This document shows, piece after piece, positions 16,234 through 57,454 of a stretch of 64,000 nucleotides of DNA. Source of the DNA: Jeotgalibacillus malaysiensis (GTDB lineage: Bacteria > Bacillota > Bacilli > Bacillales > Jeotgalibacillaceae); the NCBI GenBank assembly GCA_000818095.1, contig CP009416.1, forward strand, positions 2,278,501-2,342,500. Reading direction: 5' to 3'. The notes beneath the pieces are model-generated. The model was not told the DNA's origin. It did not search any database and was given only the letters and a program-made list of their open reading frames with translations. Both the position numbers and the translations under genes were made by a program. How positions within the stretch are numbered: the first letter of the stretch is position 1; each line of letters opens with the position of its first letter.

Positions 16234-16360
16234 CGTTCCGCTGCGCTTCAGGCGGACGCTTTCCCCGGAACGGCGGTGAGCCTCCTCAGCTTCGCTTGCG
16301 GGGTCTCACCTGTCCGTTATATCCCGGTGGAGTCGCCGCCTTACGCTCCGCTACACTTAA
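16234..16360 (+). repeat. GC-rich dispersed element, copy 1
   Basis: This has the shared core (GGTGAGCCTCCTC, TTCGC, GGGGTCTCACCTGTC) and partly complementary ends (GCTTCAGGCGGAC against GTCGCCGCCTTACGC). It lies just after the DUF4317 gene, facing copy 2 in the opposite orientation. Its ends match copy 5 (41073-41200) closely. Confidence 0.85.
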
Positions 16361-16432
16361 CTTACTATTTGAGATAAAAATGTTTACTATGTAATCACCT
16401 TTTCATGATAAAAAACTGTTATAAAAATGATA

Positions 16433-16561
16433 GCTGTCTCTTGGAGTGTAGGGCGTAGACTCCTGCGGCATAGAAGCGACAGGTGAGACCCCGGAGAGCG
16501 AAGCTCGAGGAGGCTCACCGCGCGGCCGCGGAAAGCGCAGCCCTCCACGGAAAGAGACAGC
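16433..16561 (-). repeat. GC-rich dispersed element, copy 2
   Basis: This is inverted relative to copy 1. It has the same core and a perfect 10-bp terminal inverted repeat, GCTGTCTCTT (16433-16442) with AAGAGACAGC (16552-16561), plus further inner pairing (GGGC/GCCC). Confidence 0.88.
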
Positions 16562-16587
16562 GGTTCTCTTAAAAGTTGCAAATTATT

Positions 16588-18108
16588 TCACTTTTTCTTT
16601 AATGGTGTCACTGCAGGTCCTTCCAGTACTGCACCGTCAAATGAAAATCTCGAACCGTGACACGGGCAGTCCCATGAACGTTCATCCTGATTCCAGGCGC
16701 ACTCACAGCCCATATGCGTACATGTAATATCGACTTTATGAAGGTTGCCTTCCTCATCCCGATAAGCGCCGGTTTTACCACTGTGATCTTTAATGATTCC
16801 GCCTTCCCCGCTTAGAATATCTTCCTCAGTTTTGCCAGGGCTTTTCAGCTTTCCTTTTACAAGCTCTGCTCCTACATTGGCATTCTCACTGACAAAGGTA
16901 CCGATAGATGATGAAACATCGTGATCAGCCGGATTGAAGAGTTCCTGAAAACGATTATGTTTATGTGTAATTAAATCTTTAATAATATGTGCAGCTGCAG
17001 TTCCGCCTGTCATGCCCCATTTTCTAAAACCGGTCGCAATATAAATGTGGTCATGATGACCTGTCACAAGTCCGGCATAAGGGATTCCGCTAACTGTATA
17101 TAAATCCTGTGAGGACCACCTGTATTTAAAGTCAGTTACACCGAATTTTGCTTTAGCGAATGACTCCAACCGCTGATATCTGCTGCCTTCAATATCATTC
17201 TGACCTGTCTTATGCCCTTCCCCTCCGATGATAAGAAGCTTTTTACCATCTTTATAGGGAGTCATTCTGATCGATTTCGTCGGGTTTTCCGCACTGATAT
17301 ACATGCCTTCTGCAAAGGAACCATCTACGATCGCAGCTGATGTATAAGATCGTTCAGGTTTGAGCCTTGAGAAATAGAGCCCTTTAAAATCAACAAAAGG
17401 AAAGTGAGTCGCTGCAATCAATTTTTTTGCTTTGATGACATATCCATCTTCAGTTTTAGCTTCTACCCCATTACTGTGTTCATCAGCATCAAGTAATCTG
17501 GTTTTTTCATAAATTTCCCCGCCGTGCTTGATATATTCATCCAGCAGCGCTTTTAAATACTTGACCGGATGGAATTGAAACTGATTCGGCATTTTTAATA
17601 CTGCCGCTGCCCCGATATCATAAGGCATTTCATCTGTGAATTCACCGGCAATACCAAGCGTCTGATAAGCTTTCCATTCTTTTTCAAGCTGTTCCGGCTG
17701 ATCAATTGTGTAGATGCCTGCTTCCTGCACACTAAAATCACAGTCAATCTCATGCTCACTGATTTGCTGCTTCATCCAGTTCATTGCTTCCGTATTAGCA
17801 TCGTAATAAAGCTTTGCCTTTTCTTTTCCGTGCTGAGAAATAAATTGATCATATACCATTCCGTGCTGTGCAGTTACTTTTGCGGTCGTATAGCCTGTCG
17901 TGCCCTGAAAGACCCGGTTTGCGTCTGCAATGGTTACTTTAAATCCTTCTTTAATGAGTAACAGTCCTGCTGTGATCCCGGCGATTCCTGCTCCTGCAAT
18001 CAGAATATCTGTCTCATGGTTATCAGTCAGTTTTTCTGCGTCAGGTACTCCGTCTTCAAGCCAGTATGACTGGTTGATTATATATTGATCGATAAATGAT
18101 TCTCCCAT
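16588..18108 (-). CDS. FAD-dependent oxidoreductase with C-terminal Rieske domain (YhfW-like)
   Basis: The 506-residue protein has an N-terminal dinucleotide-binding motif (DILIAGAGIAGITAGLLL, about residues 34-51) in a DAO-type FAD fold. At the C-terminus is a Rieske [2Fe-2S] site with CTHMGC and CPCHGSRF. B. subtilis YhfW has this arrangement. Its physiological substrate is not established; a redox role coupling an amine or hydroxy-acid oxidation to the iron-sulfur centre is inference. It is monocistronic, between dispersed elements on both sides, and not in its B. subtilis location. Confidence 0.88.
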   Translation of the reverse strand: MGESFIDQYIINQSYWLEDGVPDAEKLTDNHETDILIAGAGIAGITAGLLLIKEGFKVTIADANRVFQGTTGYTTAKVTAQHGMVYDQFISQHGKEKAKLYYDANTEAMNWMKQQISEHEIDCDFSVQEAGIYTIDQPEQLEKEWKAYQTLGIAGEFTDEMPYDIGAAAVLKMPNQFQFHPVKYLKALLDEYIKHGGEIYEKTRLLDADEHSNGVEAKTEDGYVIKAKKLIAATHFPFVDFKGLYFSRLKPERSYTSAAIVDGSFAEGMYISAENPTKSIRMTPYKDGKKLLIIGGEGHKTGQNDIEGSRYQRLESFAKAKFGVTDFKYRWSSQDLYTVSGIPYAGLVTGHHDHIYIATGFRKWGMTGGTAAAHIIKDLITHKHNRFQELFNPADHDVSSSIGTFVSENANVGAELVKGKLKSPGKTEEDILSGEGGIIKDHSGKTGAYRDEEGNLHKVDITCTHMGCECAWNQDERSWDCPCHGSRFSFDGAVLEGPAVTPLKKK

Positions 18109-18183
18109 TTTAGAAACCTCCTTTACTCAATAGTACTAACATTTCCTTCAACTGGATTTTTTAAACAAAGGTTCTATCAAATA

Positions 18184-18316
18184 CTGGCTGCAGATTTCCG
18201 CTTCAGGGGGACGCTTTCCGTGGCCGGGCGGTGAGCCCGCAGGCTTCGCCATGCCTAGTCTCACACGTCCCTTCCTGCCACAGGAGTCGCCCCCTTCCGC
18301 TCCAATCAGCAGCTGT
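18184..18316 (+). repeat. GC-rich dispersed element, copy 3
   Basis: The core is slightly diverged (GGTGAGCCCGCAGGCTTCGC). The ends GGCTGCAGATT and AATCAGCAGC are complementary apart from one position, and the inner AGGGGGACGC faces GTCGCCCCC. It lies in the gap between the YhfW-like gene and the tyrS terminator. Confidence 0.85.
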
Positions 18317-18354
18317 GCGAATATTAAATTTTCAATTCATATTTATATTAATTA

Positions 18355-18387
18355 AAATAAAAAGCACCCGATTAATCGGATGCTTTT
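18355..18387 (-). terminator. Terminator of tyrS
   Basis: AAAAGCATCCGATT and its near-complement flank a tight loop; on the minus strand the hairpin is followed by TTTTTATTTT. Confidence 0.88.
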
Positions 18388-18392
18388 AAGGA

Positions 18393-19935
<1,543 letters not shown>

Positions 19936-19954
19936 ATGTGCTTTAATAAAGATA

Positions 19955-19984
19955 GTTTTAGCACAAACAAATTTCATCTGTCAA
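19955..19984 (-). promoter_or_regulatory. Promoter of the tyrS leader
   Basis: TTGACA (19979-19984) and TAAAAC (19955-19960) are separated by 18 bases on the minus strand, upstream of the T-box. The -35 is perfect; the -10 is weak. Confidence 0.6.
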
Positions 19985-20079
19985 GTCATTGTTTCACTCT
20001 CTTAACCTCTTTAAATTTACATTTCAGCTGTATAAAATATGTTATAATCGTAAGGATGCTGCAAGGAGGATGATCTATA

Positions 20080-23000
20080 TTGTCAGACCAAAATAAATCA
20101 TTTCGTGAGCGGATCGCCGGATGGAGCGAGGCTTCAAACCGGATCGGATTGCCACGAAAGCTGCATACGTCGTACCAGGTTTTTTGGAATTTACTATTAT
20201 TACTCTTAATTTTTATTGTAATAGGTGCCGCATTTGCCGGTGGCGTCGGTGCAGGATACTTTGCTTCTCTTGTAAAAGATGAAGAAGTCCATTCACAAGA
20301 GTCACTTGAACAAAATATTTATAATTATACCGAAACATCAGACTTATATTTTGCCAACGATGTCTATCTCGGTAAGATCAGAACAGATCTTGAGAGAGAT
20401 GAAGTTGCACTTGAAGATGTTTCACCACTGCTGATTGATGCAGTCATTGCAACAGAAGATGAATACTTTATGGAGCACGACGGGGTTGTACCAAAAGCAA
20501 TCATGCGTGCAATTTTTCAGGAAGTCACAAACGCTGCCAACCAGACCGGTGGTAGTACACTCACACAACAGCTGATTAAAAATCAGGTGCTGACGAACGA
20601 AGTATCTTTTGACCGTAAAGCAAAAGAAATTCTGCTCGCACTAAGAGTTGAGCGATTCTTTGAAAAAGATGAGATTTTAGAAGCTTATTTGAATGTTGCT
20701 GATATGGGTAGAAATGCTTCCGGACGTAATATTGCCGGCGTCCAAACGGCTGCCATGGGACTGTTTGGTGTGAACGCTAGTGAATTAACATTACCGCAGG
20801 CCGCCTTTATCGCAGGACTTCCTCAGGCTCCGTTTGGTTATACACCTTTTACTAATGGCGGTGAGCTGAAGGAAGACGCCGGTTTACAGCCTGGGCGCGA
20901 GCGTAAAAATGAAGTACTTTCACGTATGCTGAGAGATGGCTCAATCACACAGGAAGAACATGATGAAGCCGTAGCATACGACTTAACACAGGATTTCGTT
21001 GAGCCGAGCTCTGGTGCATTAGAGCGTTACCCATATGTGACTGAGGAACTTGAGCGCCGTGCACAGGATATTCTAATGTATATGCTTGCTGAAAAAGATG
21101 GCTATTCTGAAGCGCAGGTAGATGCAAGTCAGACGCTTTTCGAGAAATATGCTGTACTAGCAGCAAGAGATATGCGTCAGAATGGTTATCAGATTCACTC
21201 AACGATCGATAAAGAAGTTTATGACAAGATGGAAGAAGTCAAAAATAATTACACACGTTTTGACGTCGAAAGAGAAGGCGAAGAATGGGACGCTGAAGAA
21301 GGCCGATTTGTACCTATCATGGAACAGGAACAGGTTGGAACAGTTCTGATGGAAAACGCGACTGGAAAGATTATCAGCTTTACAGGGGGGCGTGATCATG
21401 AGAGGAACAGTATTAATCACGCTACAATGTCATATAGATCTAGTGGTTCAACCATTAAACCACTTGCAGTTTATGCACCAGCCGTCGAATATGGTTTGAT
21501 CGGCGCAGGCTCACCATTAGCCGATGTTGCATTCACAGGTCCAGGTGGATGGCAGCCAGCAAACTATGTTGTTGGAAGAGAATATGGATTGATCCCTGCA
21601 AGAACCGCTCTTGCTGCTTCTCATAACCTTTCAGCCGCTCGCCTTTATGGAAGAATGCTGCAATCAGGTTATACCCCGGGAGAATTTTTGGAAGTAATTG
21701 ATCCACAGGGAATTGAAGATGTTGAATATAGTTACCCTGCATTCTCTCTTGGCGGGATGGAAAAAGGAATAACAGTTGAAGAAAACGTATCTGCTTATGC
21801 AGCAATTGCTAACTACGGTCAATATAACGAACCTTATATGATCGAAAAAATTATCGATAGAGATGGAAATGTAGTGTTTGAACATGAATCTGAGTCAAAA
21901 GAGATGTTCTCTCCTGCTGCCTCATACGTAACACTTGATATGATGAGAGACACTTTAACATCCATTGGTTCTGGACGAACTGCACCAGGCTACCTGAACT
22001 TCTCTACTGACTGGGCAGGTAAATCCGGAACATCCCAGGAAACAAGAGATAACTGGTTTATTGCTTCTAATCCTGAAGTAACATTCGGATTATGGCTTGG
22101 TTATGACACACCTAAAACGTTAAGAGATCAGAGCTCTGTACGTGCAATTAACCTCTGGGCGTTCATGATGAATGGTGTCAACGAAATCAGAACAGACTTG
22201 ATCGACCCGGAATACAGCTTCCAGCAGCCTGAAGGGGTTGTAAGCCGTTCGTTCTGTACATTTACAGGATTACCAGCGGGTCAGGCTTGTTCTGCTGCAG
22301 GTCTAGTAACGTCTGATCTATTTACAACTGCGTGGAGCCCTTCCGGTGAAGAAGCCGGTCTTGAGACTTCCAAATATGTGACAAGAAATGGTCAGCGGTA
22401 TATTGCACTTGATTCAACTCCGGATGAGTTTTCATCAACCGGTGCAATCTTAAGCCCTGACTTTGCAGAAACAATGTTATATCCATATGGCGGAGATGCT
22501 TCAAAACTATTCCCTGAGAATAATAGCTTCTTTGACAATATGCTTGTTGCAGATAACACATTGAATGACGATGGATCTAACCCATCGCCTGTTACAGCAA
22601 GCGTATCCGGCACAACACTCAGCTGGACCAACTCAGGCAGTGGTGATGTGATCGGATATCGCATTTACTCAGGATCAAGAGTCGTTACCATCAGTCAATT
22701 TGATGATGATAATTCTACTACGCTTCCTGCCGGCACTTATGAAGTGGTCGCAGTTGATGTAGCAGGTAAGGAATCTGCAAGATCAAATGAAGTAAGAATC
22801 GGCGCTGAGCCTGATCCTGAGCCTGCAGAACCGGAAGAAAACAATAACGGTAACAGCGGAAATGCGGGCAATGGTAATGGCAGTGGAAATGGTAACGGAA
22901 ACGGAAATGGAGGCGGCAGCACTCCTCCGGCTGAGGAAGACCCTCCAGCTGAAGAAGAACCACCTGCTGAAGAAGAGCCTCCTGCTGAAGAAGAGCCTCC

Positions 23001-23082
23001 TGCTGAGGAGGAACCTCCAGCCGAAGAAGAACCACCTGCTGACGAAGACCCTGAAGAACCAGGTGAAGGTGACGAAGCATAA
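20080..23082 (+). CDS. Class A penicillin-binding protein (transglycosylase/transpeptidase)
   Basis: The 1000-residue membrane-anchored enzyme polymerises and cross-links peptidoglycan. A short cytoplasmic N-terminus is followed by one transmembrane helix (about residues 36-63). The glycosyltransferase 51 domain has ATEDEYFMEHDG, GGSTLTQQLIKN and KEILEAYLN-type motifs (residues about 120-250). The transpeptidase domain has STIK (SxxK), SHN (SxN) and KSGT. A fibronectin-III-like region (about 835-905), an Asn/Gly-rich spacer and repeated PPAEEE motifs finish the protein. The start is TTG at 20080, with AAGGAGGA ten bases before. It lies beside tyrS as in many Bacillales and has its own terminator. 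Confidence 0.93.
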   Translation: MSDQNKSFRERIAGWSEASNRIGLPRKLHTSYQVFWNLLLLLLIFIVIGAAFAGGVGAGYFASLVKDEEVHSQESLEQNIYNYTETSDLYFANDVYLGKIRTDLERDEVALEDVSPLLIDAVIATEDEYFMEHDGVVPKAIMRAIFQEVTNAANQTGGSTLTQQLIKNQVLTNEVSFDRKAKEILLALRVERFFEKDEILEAYLNVADMGRNASGRNIAGVQTAAMGLFGVNASELTLPQAAFIAGLPQAPFGYTPFTNGGELKEDAGLQPGRERKNEVLSRMLRDGSITQEEHDEAVAYDLTQDFVEPSSGALERYPYVTEELERRAQDILMYMLAEKDGYSEAQVDASQTLFEKYAVLAARDMRQNGYQIHSTIDKEVYDKMEEVKNNYTRFDVEREGEEWDAEEGRFVPIMEQEQVGTVLMENATGKIISFTGGRDHERNSINHATMSYRSSGSTIKPLAVYAPAVEYGLIGAGSPLADVAFTGPGGWQPANYVVGREYGLIPARTALAASHNLSAARLYGRMLQSGYTPGEFLEVIDPQGIEDVEYSYPAFSLGGMEKGITVEENVSAYAAIANYGQYNEPYMIEKIIDRDGNVVFEHESESKEMFSPAASYVTLDMMRDTLTSIGSGRTAPGYLNFSTDWAGKSGTSQETRDNWFIASNPEVTFGLWLGYDTPKTLRDQSSVRAINLWAFMMNGVNEIRTDLIDPEYSFQQPEGVVSRSFCTFTGLPAGQACSAAGLVTSDLFTTAWSPSGEEAGLETSKYVTRNGQRYIALDSTPDEFSSTGAILSPDFAETMLYPYGGDASKLFPENNSFFDNMLVADNTLNDDGSNPSPVTASVSGTTLSWTNSGSGDVIGYRIYSGSRVVTISQFDDDNSTTLPAGTYEVVAVDVAGKESARSNEVRIGAEPDPEPAEPEENNNGNSGNAGNGNGSGNGNGNGNGGGSTPPAEEDPPAEEEPPAEEEPPAEEEPPAEEEPPAEEEPPADEDPEEPGEGDEA
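22918..23060 (+). repeat. Tandem 18-bp coding repeats in PBP tail (PPAEEE)
   Basis: Six or so 18-base units encode PPAEEE or close variants (PPAEED, PPADED) at the extreme C-terminus of the PBP. They follow a GNGNGNGN tract encoded by GGAAATGGTAACG-type repeats. Such Pro/Glu tails are length-variable wall-spanning linkers. Confidence 0.85.
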
Positions 23083-23091
23083 CACTAAAGG

Positions 23092-23123
23092 AACCAGGAT
23101 TGCTGATGCAATCCTGGTTTTTT
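23092..23123 (+). terminator. Terminator of the PBP gene
   Basis: AACCAGGATTG pairs with CAATCCTGGTT around a short loop and is followed by TTTT. Confidence 0.9.
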
Positions 23124-23154
23124 ATATAAATGGATTATTTAACATTTACCATTT

Positions 23155-23187
23155 TAAAAATCCGTCCTGATTTCAGAACGGATTTTT
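23155..23187 (-). terminator. Terminator of acsA
   Basis: AAAATCCGTTCTGA pairs with TCAGGACGGATTTT (one G-T pair), with T-runs on both sides. Confidence 0.88.
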
Positions 23188-23194
23188 CACACGA

Positions 23195-24913
23195 TTAATC
23201 TTCCATTGTAGATAAATCACCAGTTGGCAGATCAAGCTCCCACGCTTTCAATACGCGTCTCATAATCTTACCGCTTCTTGTTTTAGGCAGCTTATCTTTA
23301 AATTCAATCTCTCTAGGCGCCGCGTGCGCTGAAAGACCTTTTTTAACATGCTGTCTGATTTCTTCCTTCAGTTCATCACTTGCCTCGTATCCTTCACGAA
23401 GTGCGATGAACGCTTTAATAATTTCACCGCGAACAGGGTCAGGCTTTCCGATCACGCCGGCTTCAGCGATCGCGGGGTGTTCGACAAGCTTACTTTCTAC
23501 TTCGAACGGTCCTACACGCTCACCTGAAGTCATAATGACATCATCAATTCTACCCTGGAACCAGAAGTATCCATCTTCATCCTGGTAAGCAGAGTCACCG
23601 GACACATACCAGTCACCCGGCATAAAATAAGATTCGTATTTTTCTTTATTATTCCAGATCGTATGCATCATGGATGGCCAGCCCTTTTTAAGTGCAAGAT
23701 TACCCATCCGGTTAGCCGGCAGTTCATTCCCCTGATCATCCACAATGGCTGCTTCAACGCCCGGCACCGGTTTACCCATTGAGCCTGGACGGATTTCCAT
23801 TGCAGGGTAATTACAGATCATCTGTCCGCCAGTTTCAGTCATCCACCACGTATCATGAATACGATGATTAAATACCTTCATCCCCCATCTGATCACTTCC
23901 GGGTTGAGCGGCTCTCCTACACTCAGTACGTGACGAAGGTTGGAAAGGTCATATTTTTTAACAAGGTCATCCCCTGCTCCCATTAACATACGGAATGCTG
24001 TCGGAGCACTGTACCACACTGTTACTTCATAGTCTTCAAGTGTCTGATACCATGCCTCCGGGCTGAAGCGTCCTCCCACAATGACAGAAGTTGTCCCGGT
24101 GAGCCACGGTCCAAAAATACCGTATGATGTTCCTGTTACCCAGCCCGGGTCAGCAGTACACCAGTAAATATCATTATCTTTCAGATCAAGCACCCATCTT
24201 GCAGTCTGATAATGCTGCAGCATCGCTCGCTGTACATGCAGCACACCTTTTGGCTTACCTGTTGAACCTGATGTGTAATGCAGAATCAGTCCATCATCCT
24301 GTTCTAACCACTCAATCTCAAATGAGCGGGAAGCTTCACTGAAATGCTGATTAAAATCGATATATTTGCCTTCTTCAGTCACGTTATCGCCAACGACGAT
24401 TACATGCTTCAGGTTAGGCAGTTCATCCACCGGAATTCTCTCAAGCAGCTCAGGTGTTGTAATAATTGCTTTAGCATCGCTGTCTTCGAGGCGATCTCTT
24501 ACTGCGCCTTCCATGAATGCTTCAAAAAGCGGTCCGACAATGGCACCGATTTTTAATGCGCCAAGGAGTGCAAAATACAGTTCAGGAGATCTTGGCATAA
24601 AAATAAATACTCTATCTCCTTTTTCTATATCTGCCTGACTCTTCAGCACGTTTGCTGCTTTATTCGTCATTTCTTTCATTTCTCTGAATGTGTACTTTTC
24701 GTTGCGGTTCGCATCGCGGTAATACAATGCGATCTTGTTCTTTTTATCCCCTTCAGCATGACGGTCGATTGCTTCATACGCCATATTAATCTTGCCTGTA
24801 TGATGCCATGAAAATTCCTTTTCTACCTCACTCCAGTCAAATGAATCAACTGCAGCTTCATAGTTTTGAAGATTATAGTCCCCTTTAACTGCTGGTAGCG
24901 CTTCCAATTTCAT
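23195..24913 (-). CDS. acsA: Acetyl-CoA synthetase
   Basis: The 572-residue AMP-forming acyl-CoA synthetase has the AMP-binding motif YTSGSTGKPKG, the WWMTETGG substrate region, the hinge FQGRIDDVIMTSGERVG and the C-terminal PKTRSGKIMRR, whose final-motif lysine is the classic acetylation site. It activates acetate to acetyl-CoA. Family length matches B. subtilis AcsA. AcuA (acetyltransferase) and AcuC (deacetylase), encoded divergently just upstream, are the known regulators of this lysine. The start ATG follows GGGGGAAG. The divergent spacer carries a near-consensus cre. Confidence 0.96.
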   Translation of the reverse strand: MKLEALPAVKGDYNLQNYEAAVDSFDWSEVEKEFSWHHTGKINMAYEAIDRHAEGDKKNKIALYYRDANRNEKYTFREMKEMTNKAANVLKSQADIEKGDRVFIFMPRSPELYFALLGALKIGAIVGPLFEAFMEGAVRDRLEDSDAKAIITTPELLERIPVDELPNLKHVIVVGDNVTEEGKYIDFNQHFSEASRSFEIEWLEQDDGLILHYTSGSTGKPKGVLHVQRAMLQHYQTARWVLDLKDNDIYWCTADPGWVTGTSYGIFGPWLTGTTSVIVGGRFSPEAWYQTLEDYEVTVWYSAPTAFRMLMGAGDDLVKKYDLSNLRHVLSVGEPLNPEVIRWGMKVFNHRIHDTWWMTETGGQMICNYPAMEIRPGSMGKPVPGVEAAIVDDQGNELPANRMGNLALKKGWPSMMHTIWNNKEKYESYFMPGDWYVSGDSAYQDEDGYFWFQGRIDDVIMTSGERVGPFEVESKLVEHPAIAEAGVIGKPDPVRGEIIKAFIALREGYEASDELKEEIRQHVKKGLSAHAAPREIEFKDKLPKTRSGKIMRRVLKAWELDLPTGDLSTMED

Positions 24914-25011
24914 ATTATCTTCCCCCTATGTACAAGTTCTTTTACAGTATAGTACACTTCCAATATTATCTCAATTTTTTTAATATTCCGTTTGACAAAT
25001 TCTGCTTTAAA

Positions 25012-25036
25012 ACTGGCTGTTGATTTCCGCTGTGCA
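25012..25036. repeat. Remnant of dispersed-element ends
   Basis: CTGGCTGTTGATTTCCGCT joined directly to GTGCAAG resembles the left end of copies 3 and 4 fused to their right-end TGTGC, without the core. Probably an internally deleted copy. Confidence 0.45.
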
Positions 25037-25101
25037 AGAATAAGGTTTGACTTTTATATACCCTTTCAAAAAAGCAATCGCCATTTCTATTCTCCTTTTT
25101 G

Positions 25102-25116
25102 TTGAAAGCGCTTTTA
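25102..25116 (+). promoter_or_regulatory. Candidate CcpA-binding site (cre) between acsA and acuA
   Basis: TTGAAAGCGCTTTTA fits the cre consensus WTGNAANCGNWWNCA with one mismatch. It sits 52 bases before the acuA start and about 190 bases before acsA. In B. subtilis both acsA and acuABC are CcpA-repressed. Confidence 0.75.
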
Positions 25117-25167
25117 TAATTAGGGTATGCTGTATAGTAGGACTACTATGAAATGTAGGTGACAGTG

Positions 25168-25800: not shown

Positions 25801-25812
25801 GAGGAATGTCCA

Positions 25813-40695: not shown

Positions 40696-40829
40696 GGCTG
40701 GTGATTTCCGCTTCAGGGGAACGCTTTCCGCAGGGCCGGCGGTGAGCCTCCTCAGGCTAAGCCTTGCGGGGCCTCACCTGTCCGACTTCTCCTGCTGGAG
40801 TCGTCCTCTTCCGCTCCAATCATCAGCTG
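40696..40829 (+). repeat. GC-rich dispersed element, copy 4
   Basis: Same core as the other copies. Its ends GCTGGTGATT and AATCATCAGC are complementary with one mismatch, and the closing stem resembles copy 3. Confidence 0.88.
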
Positions 40830-41072: not shown

Positions 41073-41200
41073 GTGTAGCGAAGCGTAAGGCGGCGACTCC
41101 ACCGGGATATGACCGACAGCTGAGACCCCACAGGGCGAAGCCCGAGGAGGCTCAGCACGGTCCCCGGGGAAAGCGTCCGCCTGAAGCGCAGCGAAACGGT
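41073..41200 (-). repeat. GC-rich dispersed element, copy 5
   Basis: Inverted copy. Reverse-complemented, its outer part is nearly the same as copy 1 (GCTGCGCTTCAGGCGGACGC; GGTGGAGTCGCCGCCTTACG). Confidence 0.87.
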
Positions 41201-47903: not shown

Positions 47904-48030
47904 CAGCTGACCCTTGGAATGCAGGACGAAGACTCCTGCGGCAGGAAGGGACAGGTGAGACAGAGCATGGCGAAGCCTGCTGGCTCACCGCCCGGCCGCA
48001 GAAAGCGAAGTCCTGCATGGAAAGGGGCAG
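47904..48030 (-). repeat. GC-rich dispersed element, copy 6
   Basis: Reverse orientation. Its ends GCTGACCCTTGGAATGCAGGAC and GTCCTGCATGGAAAGGGGCAGC pair over about 22 positions with few mismatches. The core is present (CGGTGAGCCAGCAGGCTTCGCC on the minus strand). Confidence 0.87.
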
Positions 48031-48052
48031 CGGTTGTTATAATCTGAAATCA

Positions 48053-48099
48053 AAAATAGCCTGTACTCTTCTGTTGTTGCCAGAAAAGGATCAGGCTAC
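48053..48099 (-). terminator. Probable terminator of ytmP
   Basis: AGCCTG and CAGGCT with partial inner pairing lie after the ytmP stop, followed by TTTTTG on the minus strand. Confidence 0.6.
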
Positions 48100-48899: not shown

Positions 48900-48942
48900 C
48901 TTCTATAGCGGAGTGGTTTAAGATCTACATTCATAGAATAGA

Positions 48943-48985
48943 AAAAGATAGCAGCTAGACAAAGCGCTATCCTTTTAAAATTTTA
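48943..48985 (-). terminator. Terminator after ytlR
   Basis: GGATAGCGC...GCTATC forms a hairpin followed by TTTTT on the minus strand, between ytlR and ytmP. Confidence 0.65.
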
Positions 48986-48998
48986 TCGTTTTCCCCTA

Positions 48999-49934: not shown

Positions 49935-50887
49935 TCTTCCGGATCCTGCATTTCTTCACTCCATTGCATACGTCCGACTGATGTAGTTTGTGTATAATCA
50001 ATCACCGACCTTGCAGCCTTCATCTGCATATGTTTAAACGGTGAAGACATATTCCGCTGGTGCTGATGCCATTTTTCTATGTTTCTTTTATCAATGATTT
50101 TATAGCCGTATGGAATATCAGGAAAATCCACATAGCCATTTCTAGTTATAACGGCCTTATGTATTGCAAAATCAACCTCATTTTTATCAAAAATCTGCTG
50201 AATGATGGAAGCTGTCCTGTCAAGAGAGATGAGCGGATTCAATAATGTATGCTCACTCTCGCCCTGCTTGACCTTCCAGAAACGTTCAGTAGTACCGACA
50301 AATACTGTGCCTTCTCCTTCTTCAAGCATTGAAATACACCACAGTCCGGTCGGTGTGAAAAGAAGGATTTCAAGCTCTACAGGCGCTTTCTTAAGTAACA
50401 GAATCGGCTCATACATTAATAAAAAAGTGTCAGGAAAGCGCTGAAGGAAAAATTTCAGATGGTCATCACGATAATACTTCGGGTCTACATAGGATTTCTC
50501 CGTCAGCGTTGAGCTTGCCCATTTCAGCTGAAATTGCAGGAGCTGATCGAGATAAAGATGCTTCAGATCATCAAGCGTCTCAGGCTTATAGTACACAGAG
50601 GGTTCAAATGATAAATCATCTGTTTCTTCCTCTTCCATTTCTGCTTCAGTTTCTTTCTGTTGCTTGACAAGTATTTTTTTAAAGCGCTTCAATAGACCTT
50701 CTTTTCCTTCAACCTCTTCTTTAAAACGTTCAATTTCTTCTTCATTTAAAAAAATGCCGCCATCTTCCCACTGCTGTCTGATTTTTGTCCACTGCTGCTT
50801 TTTCAGCCTGACATATTGTGATGGATAGCGGATCATATCTTTCTCATAACGTGACACATAATCCTGGAGCTTAATCAGCTGTGCCAT
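49931..50887 (-). CDS. ytlQ: YtlQ, hypothetical protein
   Basis: About 318 residues. Soluble, starting MAQLIKLQDYVSRYEKDMIR; a charged helical middle (about 80-110) precedes a beta-rich part that ends near VDFPDIPYGYKIIDKRN. It shows weak resemblance to NERD-like nuclease-related proteins, but no catalytic motif is identified. The ATG at 50887 is preferred; the GTG at 50896 extends it by three codons. The gene overlaps the end of ytlP. Confidence 0.75.
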   Translation of the reverse strand: MAQLIKLQDYVSRYEKDMIRYPSQYVRLKKQQWTKIRQQWEDGGIFLNEEEIERFKEEVEGKEGLLKRFKKILVKQQKETEAEMEEEETDDLSFEPSVYYKPETLDDLKHLYLDQLLQFQLKWASSTLTEKSYVDPKYYRDDHLKFFLQRFPDTFLLMYEPILLLKKAPVELEILLFTPTGLWCISMLEEGEGTVFVGTTERFWKVKQGESEHTLLNPLISLDRTASIIQQIFDKNEVDFAIHKAVITRNGYVDFPDIPYGYKIIDKRNIEKWHQHQRNMSSPFKHMQMKAARSVIDYTQTTSVGRMQWSEEMQDPEE

Positions 50888-51437
50888 TACTTTCACCGCT
50901 TTCTTTTAACTGAAATGATTGATAAACCGTATACATAGGCGATCTGCCTGGATGAATTTCATAGATCGAAATTTTTTCAATGGTTTCTATTACCGGATCA
51001 ATTGGCCCTATATAAATATGAGCCGGCTCACCCTTCCACTTTTTTGCCAGTGTCACATGCGGACGGAAAGGTCTTTTTTCATCTTTATGAATCAGCCTGA
51101 CTGCATCCTGAATGGATTCATACAGTGCCTGCAGTTCATCTGACGGCTCAGGTCCTGCCCACCAGACTCTTGGCGTCTCTTCTTTTCCAAATGTATCGAG
51201 ATGGCTGTATGTTAATGAAAAAGGCTGATAGGCTTTCATTCTTTTATCGATCGCTTCAGTCACAATTTTTAGCTGATCATCAGATACACTGCCTAAAAAT
51301 GACAATGTCAGATGCAGATCCGACTTGTGTGGTATTTTCTTAAAACGATCTTCATGTAAATAAGACTGGCGTACGTTATGTAAGACTTCTTTCGTCTGAT
51401 CAGAAAGTGTACAGGCAATAAAATAATGGTTTTCCAT
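50871..51437 (-). CDS. ytlP: RNA 2',3'-cyclic phosphodiesterase (YtlP, ThpR family)
   Basis: The 188-residue 2H-phosphoesterase has two HxTx motifs, HLTLSFLG (about residues 42-49) and HVTLAKKW. It hydrolyses 2',3'-cyclic phosphates. First gene of ytlPQR. Confidence 0.88.
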   Translation of the reverse strand: MENHYFIACTLSDQTKEVLHNVRQSYLHEDRFKKIPHKSDLHLTLSFLGSVSDDQLKIVTEAIDKRMKAYQPFSLTYSHLDTFGKEETPRVWWAGPEPSDELQALYESIQDAVRLIHKDEKRPFRPHVTLAKKWKGEPAHIYIGPIDPVIETIEKISIYEIHPGRSPMYTVYQSFQLKESGESNGTAD

Positions 51438-51565
51438 AACAGACCTCCATCATTTGGTATTGGCTTCATTATAACGTTTTTTACTCGGCTGGACAGTCTA
51501 AATTGAATCCTTGCTGGTGAAAAGGTAGAATGAAAACACGTAATTGTCTTGAAAGGATGATAATC

Positions 51566-52498
51566 ATGAAAGTTGTTAATAACATTGCAGAACTGATCGG
51601 GGATACTCCATTTGTAAAATTGAACCGTCTGCAGCCTGAAAAAGGCGCTAAGGTATACGCAAAGCTTGAGTATTACAATCCGAGTAAAAGTGTAAAAGAC
51701 CGCGCTGCTTTTAATATGATTCTAGAAGCTGAAAAAGCAGGCTATCTAAAAGCAGGTTCTACGATTATTGAACCTACAAGCGGAAATACAGGTATCGGCA
51801 TTGCCATGAACGCTTCAGCAAGAGGATACCGTTCAATCCTTGTGATGCCGGATACAATGACAGCCGAAAGAATCAACCTGTTAAAAGCATATGGTGCTGA
51901 AGTTGTACTGACGCCTGGTGATGAAAAAATGCCTGGTGCGATCAGAAAGGCAAATGAACTTTCAAAAGAAATTGAAGGCAGCTTTGTGCCGATGCAGTTT
52001 GAAAACTTTGCAAATCCTGATGCGCACAGAAAATCAACTGCACTTGAAATTATCCAGGCAGCTGATCAGCTGGGCATGCCGCTCAGCGCTTTTGTTGCGA
52101 CTGCGGGAACTGGCGGTACGATTACAGGTACTGGTGAAGTGTTAAAAGAAAAATATAAAGATCTTCAGGTGCACGTCGTTGAACCTGCGGGATCTCCTGT
52201 CCTTTCTGGCGGAAAGCCAGGTAAACACAAGCTTGTGGGGACAAGCCCCGGGTTTATCCCTGATATTTTAAATCAGGAAGTGTATGATAAAATTCATAAA
52301 ATTGAAGATGAACAGGCGTATGATATTACAAGACGTTTGGCGCGCGAGGAAGGTATTCTTGTAGGACCTTCATCCGGTGCAGCCTGCTATGCAGCACTTG
52401 AAGTTGCTAAGACACTGCCTGAGGATTCATTTGTCGTGTTTATTGCGTGCGATACAGGCGAGAGATACCTGTCTAGTGATGTTTTCAGATATGAGTAA
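51566..52498 (+). CDS. Cysteine synthase
   Basis: The 310-residue PLP enzyme has the lysine-bearing NPSKSVKDRAAFNMI, the phosphate-binding TSGNTGIGIA and TAGTGGTITGTGEVLK. It makes cysteine from O-acetylserine and sulfide. It corresponds to ytkP, a CysK paralogue. The ATG at 51566 (MKVVNNIAELIGDTPFV) follows GAAAGGA by eight bases; two upstream in-frame starts are not conserved. It gives this window a path from the sulfide made by the cys operon to cysteine. It differs from the usual cysK located near ftsH. Confidence 0.9.
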   Translation: MKVVNNIAELIGDTPFVKLNRLQPEKGAKVYAKLEYYNPSKSVKDRAAFNMILEAEKAGYLKAGSTIIEPTSGNTGIGIAMNASARGYRSILVMPDTMTAERINLLKAYGAEVVLTPGDEKMPGAIRKANELSKEIEGSFVPMQFENFANPDAHRKSTALEIIQAADQLGMPLSAFVATAGTGGTITGTGEVLKEKYKDLQVHVVEPAGSPVLSGGKPGKHKLVGTSPGFIPDILNQEVYDKIHKIEDEQAYDITRRLAREEGILVGPSSGAACYAALEVAKTLPEDSFVVFIACDTGERYLSSDVFRYE

Positions 52499-52515
52499 GT
52501 TTTAACCTTCAAACG

Positions 52516-52555
52516 CAAAAACCCTCCAATTCCTACGGTGGAATTGGAGGGTTTT
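52516..52555. terminator. Bidirectional terminator, cysteine synthase / dat
   Basis: AAAACCCTCCAATTC and GAATTGGAGGGTTTT form a perfect 15-bp stem around an 8-nt loop. Confidence 0.95.
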
Positions 52556-52578
52556 GTTATGATTGCTCATTGAAAAAA

Positions 52579-53448
52579 TTAAAGTGTAATTGTCTCAGTC
52601 AGTGCACCACACTGCTTTTCAACTGCTTCTTCGAACGCTTCCTGCAATTTGCGCGTCCAGCTGCCTGGTGTGCCGCCAGCGATTTGCTGATCGTTCACTA
52701 ATGTCAGTGGCATCACTTCAGCAGTTGTGCTTGCCATGAATACTTCTTCAGCATTGTATAACTCATCAAGTGTAAATGCTTTTTCTTCAACATTCAGTCC
52801 AATATTAGCACAAAGCTTAATGATTTCACGGCGCGTGATCCCATTTAGAATCAGATTGGTTGCAGGGTGTGTATACATCGTATCGTTCGCAATCATAAAC
52901 ACGTTTGATGATGACCCTTCTGTTACAGTCTCATCTCTGTGCAGAATTGCTTCAAAACCGCCCTTAGAGACTGCTTCCTGTTTTGCAAGCAGGTTGCCGA
53001 GTAAGTTCAGACTCTTAATATCACATCTGAGCCACCTCACATCCGGTGTAGTAATTGCTTTTACCCCTGCACTCATATCACCGACAGGACGTGCTACTTC
53101 TTTTGTATAAGCAGTCAGCACAGCATTTTGTTCCTCAGGGAAATGGTGCTGTCTTGATGATGCGCCTCTTGTTACCTGCAGATAGATAATGCCTGTATCC
53201 AGGTTGTTATCTGTCATGAGCTTTTCAAGTCTTGCTGTTAATTCCTCTAATGTAAAAGGCAGTGTAAGAAAGATTTTTTCTGCTGATTCGAATAATCTTG
53301 TCAGGTGCTCTTTTGCTGTAAACATCTTACCGCCATATACTCTGACTACTTCATATACGCCATCACCAAACTGATAGCCGCGATCCTCAATATCCACTGT
53401 GCCATTCACGCGGTCTAAAAACTGATCATTAACAAGAATTGTACCCAT
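52579..53448 (-). CDS. dat: D-alanine aminotransferase
   Basis: The 289-residue fold-type IV aminotransferase has GYQFGDGVYEVVRVYGG, the PLP lysine in DIKSLNLLGNLLAKQ and the tail VTEGSSSNVFMI. It makes D-glutamate and D-alanine for wall synthesis. It follows pepV after 14 bases, an operon as in B. subtilis. Confidence 0.94.
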   Translation of the reverse strand: MGTILVNDQFLDRVNGTVDIEDRGYQFGDGVYEVVRVYGGKMFTAKEHLTRLFESAEKIFLTLPFTLEELTARLEKLMTDNNLDTGIIYLQVTRGASSRQHHFPEEQNAVLTAYTKEVARPVGDMSAGVKAITTPDVRWLRCDIKSLNLLGNLLAKQEAVSKGGFEAILHRDETVTEGSSSNVFMIANDTMYTHPATNLILNGITRREIIKLCANIGLNVEEKAFTLDELYNAEEVFMASTTAEVMPLTLVNDQQIAGGTPGSWTRKLQEAFEEAVEKQCGALTETITL

Positions 53449-53462
53449 ACTGATCTCCCTCT

Positions 53463-54884
53463 CTATGATTGCTTCTCACATGCAAGCTGATAAATGGCTT
53501 CTGCATAGATTGCAGTCGCTTTTAATAAGTCTTCTATTTCAATATATTCATCTTTCTGATGCGCAACATCTTCTCTTCCAGGGAATAGCGCTCCAAATGC
53601 CACTCCATTTTCAAGTGAGCGTGCATAAGTGCCTCCGCCGATTGCGAGCAGCTCACCCTGCTTGCCTGTCTGCTTTTCATATACAGATAAAAGCGTCTGG
53701 ACAAAAGGATCATTTCCATCTACGTGATGCGGCTTTGAGTTATCTTTCACATTCACGCTGATATAATATTGCTCCATTTCACTGATCAGCCATTTAAGCT
53801 TATCATCCATGTCATACGTGACAGGATAACGGATGTTCAGTCCAAAAAATGCTTCATCTTCATCATAGCGGATCAGTCCAGTATTTAACGTGAGGTCACC
53901 GCTAATGTCATCTTTTCCGGCAATACCAAGCGCAATGCCTCTTGAATTATTATACAAATATTTGTCTGCAAATGCGGCAAACGTTCTGGCTCTTGCATCA
54001 AGCTCAAAACGCTTTAAAAATCTTAACAGCAGAATGCCGGCATTTACACCGTGATCGGGTTCCATTGCGTGTGCTGATTTGCCGTGCAGTTCCATTGTCA
54101 GAAGACCGCTTTTCACGTAAAAGTCTCCTTCTAATTCATGCTCTTTTAGAAACTCCTCATATTCCTGCAGGAGATAGGTCTGTTCAGCATGTACAGTCAG
54201 CTCTGCTTTAGCGTAATCAGGAACCATATTATAGCGCTCACCGGAATGATAGGTGTGCATTTCAATTTTCGGCGCATGCTCATCCGGTTCATAGTCGGTG
54301 AGATGAAAATCTGCGTCCATTATTCCTTTTTCAGCATGAATGACAGGAAAATCTGCGTCCGGTGCAAAACCGATCGTTGGCATTTCCTCTTTTTCAAAAT
54401 AATGATCGACACAGCGCCAGTCACTTTCTTCATCTGTACCAATAATCATCCGGACTCTTTTATTGAGTTTAAGTCCAAGTTCATCAATAATTTTCATCGC
54501 ATAATAAGCGGCGATCGTCGGCCCCTTATCATCAATGGCACCGCGTCCATAAAGTCTGCCATTTTCAATCGCGCCTTCAAACGGCTCGTATGTCCACCCA
54601 TTGCCGGCTGGTACAACGTCTACGTGACATAAAATCCCGAGCAGGTCATCTCCTTCACCCATTTCAAGGTGACCGGCAATATGACCGACATTTTTACTGG
54701 TAAATCCGGACGCTTCACCTGCATCCAGTAAGTACTCAAGTGCCCGCTTAACCTCTTTGCCAAGAGGCGCCTTTTCATCTGCGTCTGATTCATCAAGGAC
54801 GCTTGGAATGGCAATAAGCTGCTGCAGTTCTTTTAATATGTCGTCTTTTCTTTTATCAACTTCATCCATCCAGCTGATCGTCAC
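53463..54884 (-). CDS. pepV: Dipeptidase PepV (M20)
   Basis: About 473 residues with LLGILCHVDVVPAG, the bridging-aspartate region YGRGAIDDKGPTIAAYYAMK, TDEESDW and the late GGGTYAR motif. PepV is a zinc dipeptidase. The GTG at 54884 (MTISWMDEVDKRKDDIL) follows GGGGTG and fits the family start; longer in-frame sequence upstream is unlikely. Confidence 0.9.
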   Translation of the reverse strand: MTISWMDEVDKRKDDILKELQQLIAIPSVLDESDADEKAPLGKEVKRALEYLLDAGEASGFTSKNVGHIAGHLEMGEGDDLLGILCHVDVVPAGNGWTYEPFEGAIENGRLYGRGAIDDKGPTIAAYYAMKIIDELGLKLNKRVRMIIGTDEESDWRCVDHYFEKEEMPTIGFAPDADFPVIHAEKGIMDADFHLTDYEPDEHAPKIEMHTYHSGERYNMVPDYAKAELTVHAEQTYLLQEYEEFLKEHELEGDFYVKSGLLTMELHGKSAHAMEPDHGVNAGILLLRFLKRFELDARARTFAAFADKYLYNNSRGIALGIAGKDDISGDLTLNTGLIRYDEDEAFFGLNIRYPVTYDMDDKLKWLISEMEQYYISVNVKDNSKPHHVDGNDPFVQTLLSVYEKQTGKQGELLAIGGGTYARSLENGVAFGALFPGREDVAHQKDEYIEIEDLLKATAIYAEAIYQLACEKQS

Positions 54885-54957
54885 GGCATTCACCCCGTTC
54901 TTTGATAATGGTCCTATTATAGAACATTTCCACAGTGGAATCACCATGAAATTTGAT

Positions 54958-56088
54958 TCAGATGAAATAGAGGACGAGGAAAATAGTATATGGAATCACT
55001 GTAATCAGGTCCGTTTTACGCTTAATTTTAAAATAAGCGTCTATTGATTTATATTTCACTCCGATTGCATGCTGATCGATCAGTTGTGACCACATCTGCT
55101 GACTGACAGAAATCGTACCGAATGCCAAAAAGGCTACGATGATCACGTATGCCCAGCCTGATGGAACAAAAACAGCTGAAGCACCCGCTGCACCAATCAG
55201 CCTAAGGACGATATAAGTATACTCCCTATTCCTTGCATAATGCTTGATGAAGAGCTCAGCCATTGCTTTTTGAGGTCCGGGATTTTTAAAGATCCTGCCT
55301 GATTTTCTAAAAAACCATGGTTTTGTGCGGTTTCTCGCTTTAGGTGGTGTCTCTACTTCATAGGACATAGAAAACATCTTCTTAATAAATCTGGTTTTGT
55401 ACCCGCGTTCTTTTATTCCATGATCCAGAATTCTGCCTGGAGAAAGCAGACTGTTTTTCAGCAGAGCAGGCAGCACTGCAATGAAAATCATAAGTGGTAA
55501 AGCCGCAACTATTGGCATCGTCAGGCTGAGCCAGGTAATGAAAAATGTACTTAAAATGATCGCAAGCCCAATAGAAATCACAATCACCCTTAACCGCCAG
55601 CCTTTGAATCTCAGCCACGCAAAGTAAAACATTGATTTACCAAAGACTTTAATCGCAGTTGCTGAAAGCCAGAATGCAATGATATCAACCGGAGCTGCCA
55701 GTAAAAAGTCAATCAAAAATGGCAGTAATAGAAAAATGATCACACCAGTTTCTAAAAATGAAAATAACAGATTATAGATAAAACTTTTTTTCAAAAGCGA
55801 TGCAACCTGCTCTCTTTTTTTGACGAGAAAGACACTATCCGCTTCATACAAAAAAGTGCGCCATTTGGATGAAAGCATCGTCACAGCCATGACAAGTGCT
55901 GCCAATCTCCAGTCGAACCAACTGAACCAGACGGGTTGCTCCAGCCAGAGAGACCTGTAAAAAAGTCCGCTGAAAAAGATTGTTGGCAAAATTAAATAAA
56001 CAATAACCGTCCAGTCAATGGCCGTTTTAATAATGCCGTATTGATAGTTAAAATCTTTATGTATTCTTGTGCGCAAAAGTCCCTTCAT
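54958..56088 (-). CDS. ythQ: ABC transporter permease (YthQ/EcsB-like)
   Basis: About 376 residues with nine or more hydrophobic segments. It begins MKGLLRTRIHKDFNYQYG, one base after the stop of the ATPase gene, with GGAGG upstream. It contains no ATPase motif. EcsB-type permeases pair with an EcsA-type ATPase; the substrate is unknown. Confidence 0.85.
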   Translation of the reverse strand: MKGLLRTRIHKDFNYQYGIIKTAIDWTVIVYLILPTIFFSGLFYRSLWLEQPVWFSWFDWRLAALVMAVTMLSSKWRTFLYEADSVFLVKKREQVASLLKKSFIYNLLFSFLETGVIIFLLLPFLIDFLLAAPVDIIAFWLSATAIKVFGKSMFYFAWLRFKGWRLRVIVISIGLAIILSTFFITWLSLTMPIVAALPLMIFIAVLPALLKNSLLSPGRILDHGIKERGYKTRFIKKMFSMSYEVETPPKARNRTKPWFFRKSGRIFKNPGPQKAMAELFIKHYARNREYTYIVLRLIGAAGASAVFVPSGWAYVIIVAFLAFGTISVSQQMWSQLIDQHAIGVKYKSIDAYFKIKRKTDLITVIPYTIFLVLYFI

Positions 56089-56089
56089 A

Positions 56090-56773
56090 TTACTCAGCCT
56101 CCGGAATACAACCGTAAAGATCCTCCGCACCATAACCTTCAAGCACTTCCTGCAGCGTACCGTATGCTGAACTTGTCCCTTCAGAAATAATAATAAATCT
56201 ATCACCTATTTTCTCTGCTGTATCAAGAATATGTGTACACATCAAAATACCGGCACCTCTTTTACGCTCTTCCTGAATCAGTTTCATAAACAGCTTCACC
56301 GCTGACGGATCCAGCCCCATAAAAGGCTCATCAATAATCCACAATGACGGTTTTGTCAAAAGTGCGAGTAGCAGCATCGCTTTTTGCTGCATCCCTTTTG
56401 AAAATGTTCCCGGTAATTCATGAAGTACTTTTTTCAGCTGAAATTTTTCGAGCCATTCCTCTGCCCTCGGCTTCCATTCAGCTTCCGGCATTTCTTCAAT
56501 ATCAGCAATAAATTGCAGATGCTCCTGAAGCGTTAATTCATCATAAAAGACAGGCCGCTCCGGTATAAATGAATAGCGGATGTTTTTTTGAAATACTACT
56601 TCTCCTTCTAAAAATGGCAGCTGACCCATGATGGCTTTTAATGTCGTGCTTTTCCCTGCACCGTTAGATCCGATCATTATTAATAATTCTCCGGAAGTCA
56701 AATGGAAATCAATGTCCCTGATCACCGGTTGATTCGGCTGATAACTTCCTGATTGAATATGTACATGAAGCAT
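56090..56773 (-). CDS. ythP: ABC transporter ATP-binding protein (YthP)
   Basis: The 227-residue ATPase has Walker A GSNGAGKST, the signature FSKGMQQKAMLLLAL and Walker B LWIIDEPFMGLDP. It energises YthQ. The ATG at 56773 (MLHVHIQSGSYQPNQPV) has AAAGGATG at a good distance; the longer frame upstream is not conserved. Confidence 0.9.
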   Translation of the reverse strand: MLHVHIQSGSYQPNQPVIRDIDFHLTSGELLIMIGSNGAGKSTTLKAIMGQLPFLEGEVVFQKNIRYSFIPERPVFYDELTLQEHLQFIADIEEMPEAEWKPRAEEWLEKFQLKKVLHELPGTFSKGMQQKAMLLLALLTKPSLWIIDEPFMGLDPSAVKLFMKLIQEERKRGAGILMCTHILDTAEKIGDRFIIISEGTSSAYGTLQEVLEGYGAEDLYGCIPEAE

Positions 56774-57051
56774 TTTCTCACATCCTTTTAAATAATTACG
56801 AATGATCATGAGAAAAGTTTCCATTAACCTTAATAACGAACGATTTTGAAATAACTATGTTAATAGTTTGTAAATGGGTAGAAAAGGGTAGAAATTTATT
56901 TAAATGGGGTGTACAATGAAATTGTCAGACAATAACGATTGTCGAAAAAGAATGAAAAGGGGCTGTCGTCAGGCATCCAATTTTACTTCTATCAATAATT
57001 GAACTGTCAACCGTCGTCAATGCCATGGAAAAAAGATGAGGGAGTGGTTTT

Positions 57052-57270
57052 TTGAAACCAACTACGAACAGAATGCTGACGCGTATCAAATCTGTCTATA
57101 TGTTCATTAAAGAAAATGGAACAGTGACTACAAATGATTTGGTAGATGAATTCGGCATTACACCTCGCACCATTCAAAGGGATTTGAATGTGTTAGCCTA
57201 TAACGATTTAGTGACAAGTCCTAGTCGGGGCAAATGGACAACGACAGAAAAGAAAGTTAAAATTTCATAA
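57052..57270 (+). CDS. ytzE: YtzE, small DeoR-type helix-turn-helix protein
   Basis: The 72-residue protein consists almost wholly of a winged helix (VTTNDLVDEFGITPRTIQRDLNVL). DeoR-type HTH without an effector domain, as in YtzE. Start TTG at 57052 with GGGAG upstream. Probably a regulator; target unknown. Confidence 0.85.
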   Translation: MKPTTNRMLTRIKSVYMFIKENGTVTTNDLVDEFGITPRTIQRDLNVLAYNDLVTSPSRGKWTTTEKKVKIS

Positions 57271-57283
57271 ATTGAAAGTATAA

Positions 57284-57315
57284 AAGAGCAGCGTATGTAC
57301 GCTGCTCTTGTTTTG
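57284..57315 (+). terminator. Terminator of ytzE
   Basis: AAGAGCAGCGT and ACGCTGCTCTT with a 4-nt loop, followed by TGTTTTG. Confidence 0.9.
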
Positions 57316-57331
57316 TGTCTCAAATGAAAAC

Positions 57332-57454
57332 CGCGGTCACGGGAGAGGACTACGCTTTCCTGCCCCCGGGCGGTGAGCCTCCTCAGGCTTCGCCTTGCGG
57401 GGTCTCACCTGTCCCTTCCTGGGGCGGGAGTCTCCGTCCTCTCCCGTGACCGCT
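57332..57454 (+). repeat. GC-rich dispersed element, copy 7
   Basis: Its ends form a perfect 18-bp inverted repeat, GCGGTCACGGGAGAGGAC (57333-57350) with GTCCTCTCCCGTGACCGC (57436-57453). The core is GGTGAGCCTCCTCAGGCTTC then GCCTTGCGGGGTCTCACC. The clearest copy in the window. Confidence 0.93.

Follow-up and report, generated by a model that had tools for sequence, protein, structure and literature searches.

A dispersed hairpin repeat of Jeotgalibacillus whose differing arms stay complementary, possibly through upkeep at the DNA level

A stretch of 64,000 nucleotides (nt) of Jeotgalibacillus malaysiensis (contig CP009416.1 of assembly GCA_000818095.1, positions 2,278,501 to 2,342,500, forward strand; hereafter the window) contains seven copies of a GC-rich hairpin repeat of about 130 nt, the outer arms of which differ from copy to copy. 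We read this repeat as an old, non-coding and non-autonomous dispersed element resembling miniature inverted-repeat transposable elements (MITEs) or repetitive extragenic palindromic (REP) sequences, with the pairing of its arms kept largely at the DNA level. The probability that we give to this reading is about one half. The arms are probably complementary in part because one arm has been recopied from the other. In such an event the nascent strand would switch to the opposite arm during replication and copy it, and the switch would carry changes, insertions and deletions (indels) and mismatch loops from one arm to the other. That this arm-to-arm template switching, and not selection on RNA, is the main force keeping the hairpins of the order-wide family complementary is a more tentative proposal.

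The repeat, its fold and the pairing of its arms

The strand reading GGTGAGCCTCCTC is called PLUS (+) and its complement MINUS (-). The host genome is designated G000, other G numbers are genomes of relatives, and L numbers are fetched loci. All seven copies were confirmed at the positions of the original prediction, which had been made from the window alone, and no further copy in the window was found among 150 scored covariance-model matches.

Copy 1, 16234..16360, + strand: arm type 3; inverted pair with copy 2, on its left; outer arms pair unspecifically
Copy 2, 16433..16561, - strand: arm type 1; 10-bp outer stem; GGA/GGA mismatch loop; right member of the pair
Copy 3, 18184..18316, + strand: arm type 2 with a variant apex
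Copy 4, 40696..40829, + strand: arm type 2; inverted pair with copy 5, on its left
Copy 5, 41073..41200, - strand: arm type 3; right member of the pair; outer arms pair unspecifically
Copy 6, 47904..48030, - strand: arm type 1 with a variant apex
Copy 7, 57332..57454, + strand: perfect arms of 18 bp; four other species have an element at this spot, core-less or with other arms

The repeat unit is an imperfect hairpin with a conserved mismatched core, GACTCC/GGAAAGC and GAGACCCC/GGAGGCTC, and covarying stems. On MINUS the first half runs 5' arm, GACTCC, helix P2, helix P3, GGTGAG, ACCCC and apical hairpin, the latter often closed over GAA, and the second half runs GAGGAGG, CTCACC, P3', P2', GGAAAGC and 3' arm. 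Among 46 distinct copies (64 extracts minus 18 redundant ones), GACTCC is invariant, GGAAAGC is nearly so and the intervening helices are variable. The core described earlier as common to all copies, GGTGAGCCTCCTC, is exact in four of the seven, and a fifth has it with a single mismatch. The two at 18184 and 47904 depart from it by their variant apex.

Both strands fold better than their shuffled versions, as DNA and as RNA. For RNA, ten strands covering all seven window copies gave z values of -3.2 to -8.7 (0 or 1 of 200 shuffles as good); for DNA, six strands of three window copies gave -2.4 to -6.4 (0 to 2 of 200). Under the drawn structure 89.6% of the cells pair, compared with 79.9% in column shuffles, and 17 of the 34 base pairs show change on both sides. 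Doubly changed cells number 137 against a shuffled mean of 49.7, a value matched in 0 of 500 shuffles; slid registers give 14-63, a control that favours the structure because the structure was drawn from the very sequences tested. The covariation is far beyond chance. In this respect the predicted dispersed, mostly intergenic, non-coding and structure-keeping family, present in many related genomes, is borne out.

The terminal stems were examined by comparing, for each copy, the pairing energy of its own arms with the energies obtained after exchanging arms among copies. This test took in 145 of the 150 copies collected genome-wide with the covariance model, those in which both anchors are present, and a smaller run was made on 46 copies. 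Own arms average -29.5 kcal/mol and exchanged arms -18.7 kcal/mol (145 copies), the best of 2000 permutation means being -20.0. The advantage is present in type 1 (-36.4 own, -21.7 exchanged; 25 copies), type 2 (-34.7 and -27.4; 37 copies), type 3 (-25.0 and -19.8; 68 copies) and the other arms (-26.2 and -16.3; 15 copies). Chance pairing is ruled out by these energies together with the covariation shuffles.

For the single copies of the window, the claim that each pairs with its own other end stands in five cases out of seven. In the 46-copy run the own arms of 47904 and 57332 beat 45 of 45 exchanges, those of 16433 and 18184 all but one, and those of 40696 all but three; the 18-bp perfect arm at 57332 is exact. 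The claim does not hold for 16234 and 41073, the arms of which are equalled or beaten by 13 of 45 exchanges each. These two belong to the third arm type (GTGCAGCGAAGCG), in which mainly the inner GGCGG/CCGCC part pairs. The outer sequences had also been called unrelated; the arms do differ between copies, yet 130 of the 145 copies fall into three recurrent types. The arm type GTTGATTG... recurs in other genera, in 12 of 31 relatives' copies among the matches listed (41 matches in all), and a few of these come from Jeotgalibacillus itself.

All seven window copies are intergenic, as predicted, and so are 135 of the 150 in G000, which rules out a coding repeat. The other 15 overlap an open reading frame (ORF) of at least 90 amino acids (aa); nine of these ORFs are 92-107 aa long and may not be genes.

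Strong covariation and conserved internal loops are also what a functional structured RNA would display, either a cis-acting mRNA element or a small RNA, with the fold kept by selection on the transcript. The same explanation may draw on the 61 of 95 copies between co-directional genes that have MINUS on the coding strand, and on an excess of G-T over A-C in relatives that is quantified below. We nevertheless consider it unlikely. All four gene orientations occur around the copies (--61, ++34, -+22, +-18), the elements carry no Rfam match above the gathering threshold, the family decays to core-less palindromes, and the stems contain little G-U compared with tRNA stems. In the arms, G-T accounts for 80 and A-C for 48 of 3449 aligned positions (G-U 2.3%), and in the acceptor and T stems of 63 distinct tRNAs for 73 and 10 of 756 positions (9.7%), the two counts being made unlike: the arms by alignment, the tRNA stems, taken from fetched loci, at fixed positions. 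In alignment A2, the fixed columns of the innermost arm part give G-T 1 and A-C 2. G-U is rare throughout, leaning to MINUS. Its scarcity is weak evidence for a DNA-level constraint and is compatible with RNA too.

The same sites in other Jeotgalibacillus genomes

Sites A (16234 and 16433) and B (18184) were read in four other Jeotgalibacillus genomes, site D (40696 and 41073) in four and site C (57332-57454) in eleven; the fetched orthologous loci were also scanned with the covariance model, R1. Site C, just past one terminator, is occupied in 5 of 12 Jeotgalibacillus genomes. The full element of G006 has the arms GCTGACCCTTTCC.../...CCAAGGGTCAGC. In G011 and G007, G006-like arms are kept and the core is mostly or wholly lost, and in G008 most of the core is gone and the arms are nearly perfect. 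G000 and G008 are the closest pair, 84-88% identical in the neighbouring genes. At site C these two sister genomes have both arms rewritten in step, away from those of G006. Their arms differ from each other at mirrored positions, each set is self-complementary and lacks the TCC/TCC loop, and both are about 4 nt shorter on both sides than those of G006.

The 5x5 matrix of site C arms gives -31.9 to -42.6 kcal/mol for own pairs, -10.9 to -19.2 for rewritten against ancestral-type arms, and -18.7 and -21.8 for the two rewritten sets against each other. The arms of G011, G007 and G006 are alike and cross-pair at -23.4 to -37.8 kcal/mol; the 5' arm of G011 even pairs better with the 3' arm of G007 than with its own. 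The original prediction took kept pairing of unrelated sequences as the mark of a structured RNA or a cruciform-forming mobile element. That such pairing suffices for this conclusion is not supported, as the arms of site C stay complementary through rewriting and core loss. Selection on a folded RNA does not readily account for pairing that persists through the rewriting of both arms and the loss of the core. Template switching predicts such persistence, since copying of the reverse complement fixes several bases and indels at once.

On the left of site A (16234), G008 has kept an element (78.8 bits), the inner helices of which differ but, judged by eye, remain able to pair, and on the right (16433) it has a core-less element, GCTGTCTCTTTCTGTGG...CCTACACGGAAAGAGACAGC, the 5' arm of which resembles the complement of its 3' arm. 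At site B, GTGGC/GCCAC of the window reads GTAGC/GCTAC in G006. On the left of site D (40696), no model match was obtained in G008, G007, G011 or G006, and reading by eye showed in G007 a piece resembling one end of a type 2 element. On its right (41073), G008 matches weakly (32.9 bits), with an arm type other than that of the window copy and past the same terminator, and G006 has a relic seen by eye; the site D locus of G004 has a match elsewhere (44.6 bits). Because of these same-spot elements, absences and relics at sites A-D, the elements appear to be inherited in place for long periods, to be absent at times and to decay.

Elsewhere in the intergenic region of site C, G009 carries an element with 15-bp perfect arms of another sequence. 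The closely related G004, identical at 762 of 820 aligned positions, is without it. Between the two, 224 bp are present or absent, with the 12-bp direct repeat GTCCGGTTTTTT at the borders, inside a terminator. This segment exceeds the element by about 100 bp and may reflect either an insertion or a deletion. In the other five genomes, neither the model nor reading revealed an element in the site C region. A G009 stretch that borders a terminator palindrome, and outer arms that are palindromic and differ between copies, could mean that a conserved core inserts into existing palindromes such as terminators and that the outer arms are those of the target. This is highly improbable and was rejected, since most arms are recurrent types common to sites and genera and the terminator sequence of G004 differs from the arms of G009.

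Two side observations concern similar palindromes. Beside the site C gene of G001 and G010 (L263 and L264) stands a terminator, CTTTCCG...CGGAAAG, that resembles the element arms, perhaps by coincidence and perhaps as what is left of a collapsed element. In two species, core-less elements located at different sites (L121:5713-5736, the same as L129:1205-1228, and L255:1430-1453) share the deletion junction CTTTCCTGCCCCnGGGCGGnAGTC, through either repeated deletion at a GGGCGG direct repeat or descent from a short subfamily.

Mismatches, arrangement and the weighing of the explanations

Purine-purine mismatches prevail in the arms on MINUS (A-G 619, G-G 66, A-A 20) over pyrimidine-pyrimidine ones (C-T 31, T-T 15, C-C 4), and they come largely from symmetric GGA/GGA-like loops. 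These loops were counted in the 89 copies of types 1-3 that are in register, 41 of the 130 being out of register. In 45 such copies of types 1 and 2, the numbers with 0, 1, 2 and 3 loop positions paired are 30, 4, 2 and 9, and four of the nine fully paired loops read GGA in one arm and TCC in the other. The mismatch loop of types 1 and 2 tends to vanish all at once more than stepwise; that of type 3 does not. In the single copies L027 and L015, an arm stretch equals the complement of the usual opposite arm. The all-or-nothing loops of types 1 and 2 and these arm stretches agree with template switching, a process able, according to the part of PMC8794818 consulted, to create and mend stems; in the same part its authors call the strongest evidence for it in stem maintenance circumstantial.

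The one-sided mismatches (A-G against C-T above all) and the conserved unpaired bases would also suit a single-stranded DNA substrate of a recombinase or transposase, the fold of which is selected for recognition, as in IS200/IS605-REP elements and integron attC sites. In 89 of 150 copies (p=0.027) MINUS, the strand with the purine mismatches, is on the leading-sense strand and would serve as template for lagging-strand synthesis, with the origin near the start of contig C1 and the terminus near 1.78 Mb as judged from GC skew on sampled stretches. GCGAAGC is present in 90 of 145 copies, and this mini-hairpin is very stable in DNA. The arrangement of close neighbours points the same way: G000 has 20 neighbour pairs less than 600 bp apart (4.5 expected under uniform placement; maximum 12 in 1000 trials), and all 20 have the same inverted orientation, with the MINUS strands diverging. 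Among close neighbours in the 29 loci of relatives, five of eight share this orientation (L091, L093, L097, L107 and L113) and the other three form one tandem array in L097. We rate such a substrate as rather unlikely. No enzyme was found, a Y1 transposase (PF01797), the only family searched, being without a match in G000. Close inverted pairing is not general, because it is not enriched in G056, a genome of another family with two neighbours within 600 bp, one in the G000 pair orientation.

When 13 of the G000 pairs were read by eye, the partners were mostly of different subtypes and the sequence between them held no common element. The array of L097 (G010 C17, 2151-3099) consists of four tandem copies spaced by about 290 bp, the last cut by the locus end, and differs from the dispersed arrangement elsewhere. 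Of the 135 intergenic copies, 93 have the closer gene on the 5' side of PLUS (63 of 101 among unpaired copies, p=0.012). Within 350 kb of the inferred terminus, G000 has 2 copies against 30 expected, and correspondingly only 2 of the 150 lie in the ~700 kb of C1 from 1.45 to 2.15 Mb, a region that may have been acquired more recently. Depletion near the terminus as a general rule was dropped, as in G056, where the terminus was not located, one 250-kb bin has a single copy. An intrinsic terminator was dropped as well: by eye no consistent T-run follows the elements, and all gene orientations occur. The arrangement statistics define no function.

Under the explanation by DNA-level upkeep, a single-stranded copy would fold into one rod of ~130 nt, with outer arms carrying purine mismatch loops, an internal loop GACTCC/GGAAAGC, two covarying helices and the apical helix GAGACCCC/GGAGGCTC. 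Copies would have spread by the activity of a putative mobilising enzyme, after which they would be inherited in place and decay. The fold was presumably under selection during the spread, and the conserved unpaired letters suggest recognition by some factor at that time. Template switching may then account for the complementarity that was kept.

Several observations weigh against this explanation. The conserved unpaired bases, present across genera, imply selection beyond pairing. The missing Y1 family was found in 5 of 14 control genomes, and the search for a target duplication at 68 type-3 copies gave no excess of k-mers (3-8) over shuffles. In the fixed columns of the inner helices of alignment A2, G-T outnumbers A-C by 17 to 7, and the 41 relatives' matches have G-T 22 and A-C 4 of 1279 positions, as RNA would show, an excess weakened by the fitting of that alignment with an RNA model of MINUS. 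The type 3 loop does not share the all-or-nothing pattern, with 20, 20, 3 and 1 of 44 in-register copies having 0, 1, 2 and 3 positions paired. Clear coordinated rewriting of the arms is seen at one site only, site C; in G008 the core may have been lost before or after the arms were rewritten, and the site C elements might in principle have been re-inserted independently. A search for core-less relics, with settings that were too strict, yielded seven candidates, two of them the known site C relics.

Conserved RNA structures are usually recognised by their covariation, and if upkeep by template switching is true, mutation alone can produce covariation of this kind. The family is a natural data set for measuring how often template switching, as opposed to selection, makes compensatory changes.

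Distribution and comparison with known families

The family has at least 150 copies in G000, all on C1 (3.5 Mb); this is a lower bound because R1 scored 150 of 837 first-look candidates and all 150 passed. At least 150 copies are present in each of two genomes. In a set of relatives from the order, counting G000, matches occur in 47 of 61 genomes and in 35 of 48 genera. Under stricter filters, an evenly drawn sample of 249 genomes from the whole phylum has two with matches, one being G000. Three species could be named as relatives of the window: Jeotgalibacillus alimentarius, J. salarius and J. terrae. Contig C2 of G000 (603 kb) has none of the 150 scored matches. It has 42 of 108 tRNA matches in one cluster of ~11 kb (400718-411681) and is possibly a plasmid.

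Strict restriction to chromosomes was dropped, since a relative's copy used as query matched 16 of 72,556 plasmid records; one window copy matched a single record. The carriers include Priestia, Peribacillus, Niallia, Sporosarcina, Cytobacillus and Paenibacillus. In three of the four plasmid records read, the copy lies in a zwf-gnd-pgi gene block (L279, L280 and L281, from Bacillus subtilis, Paenibacillus urinalis and Priestia megaterium, respectively); a gene for a Tn3-family transposase lies close by in the Paenibacillus and Priestia plasmids. These block copies represent passive spread between genera. With one query, 0 of 50,697 phage records matched, and one pattern gave one match in viral contigs.

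A known Rfam RNA was rejected, as the elements contain no family at or above the gathering threshold; two copies searched at a relaxed threshold gave matches far below gathering, nearly all to microRNA hairpins. The only above-gathering match in the whole window lies outside the elements: a T-box leader at 19722-19933 (- strand, 108 bits), which is expected upstream of the tyrosyl-tRNA synthetase gene at 18393-19700. Open literature (5.39 million papers), searched by core sequences and topic, yielded no description matching the family, most subscription papers being outside this scope, and the consulted parts of PMC2267715, PMC3733652 and PMC2864571 hold none that could be matched to it. Naming and modelling the family would describe a common element that is absent from Rfam.

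In high copy number, intergenic position, palindromic form and occasional inverted pairs, the family resembles REP sequences and REPINs with their REP-associated tyrosine transposases (RAYTs, of the Y1 type). It differs in size, ~130 nt against 20-40 nt for the REP palindrome with its GTAG or CGTC foot, in the missing PF01797 matches in G000, and in its pairs, which unlike REPINs mostly join different subtypes around unlike sequence in the 13 cases read by eye. MITEs have terminal inverted repeats conserved in sequence, whereas the complementary arms here differ between copies; as a candidate target site duplication, the 12-bp direct repeat of G004 and G009 bounds 224 bp, more than the element itself.

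The bcr1 repeat of the Bacillus cereus group, to which it is reportedly specific, is likewise dispersed and intergenic, of similar length, from a related group and with mobile features; it was compared by description alone. So was Bhal-1 of Bacillus halodurans, an intergenic, structured stem-loop family of 36 copies and 74 nt according to the part of PMC2267715 consulted, which may be a relative of the present family. For the STAXI motif too, a candidate structure in which single-stranded DNA was weighed against RNA, the likeness lies in the question posed; as far as the consulted part of PMC2864571 goes, it is a tandem pseudoknot motif of unrelated structure. The hairpins attributed to template switching in the consulted part of PMC8794818 share with ours the perfect stems and multi-base compensatory changes that arise from reverse-complement copying; those hairpins lie in microRNA and rRNA genes, and ours in a dispersed bacterial repeat.

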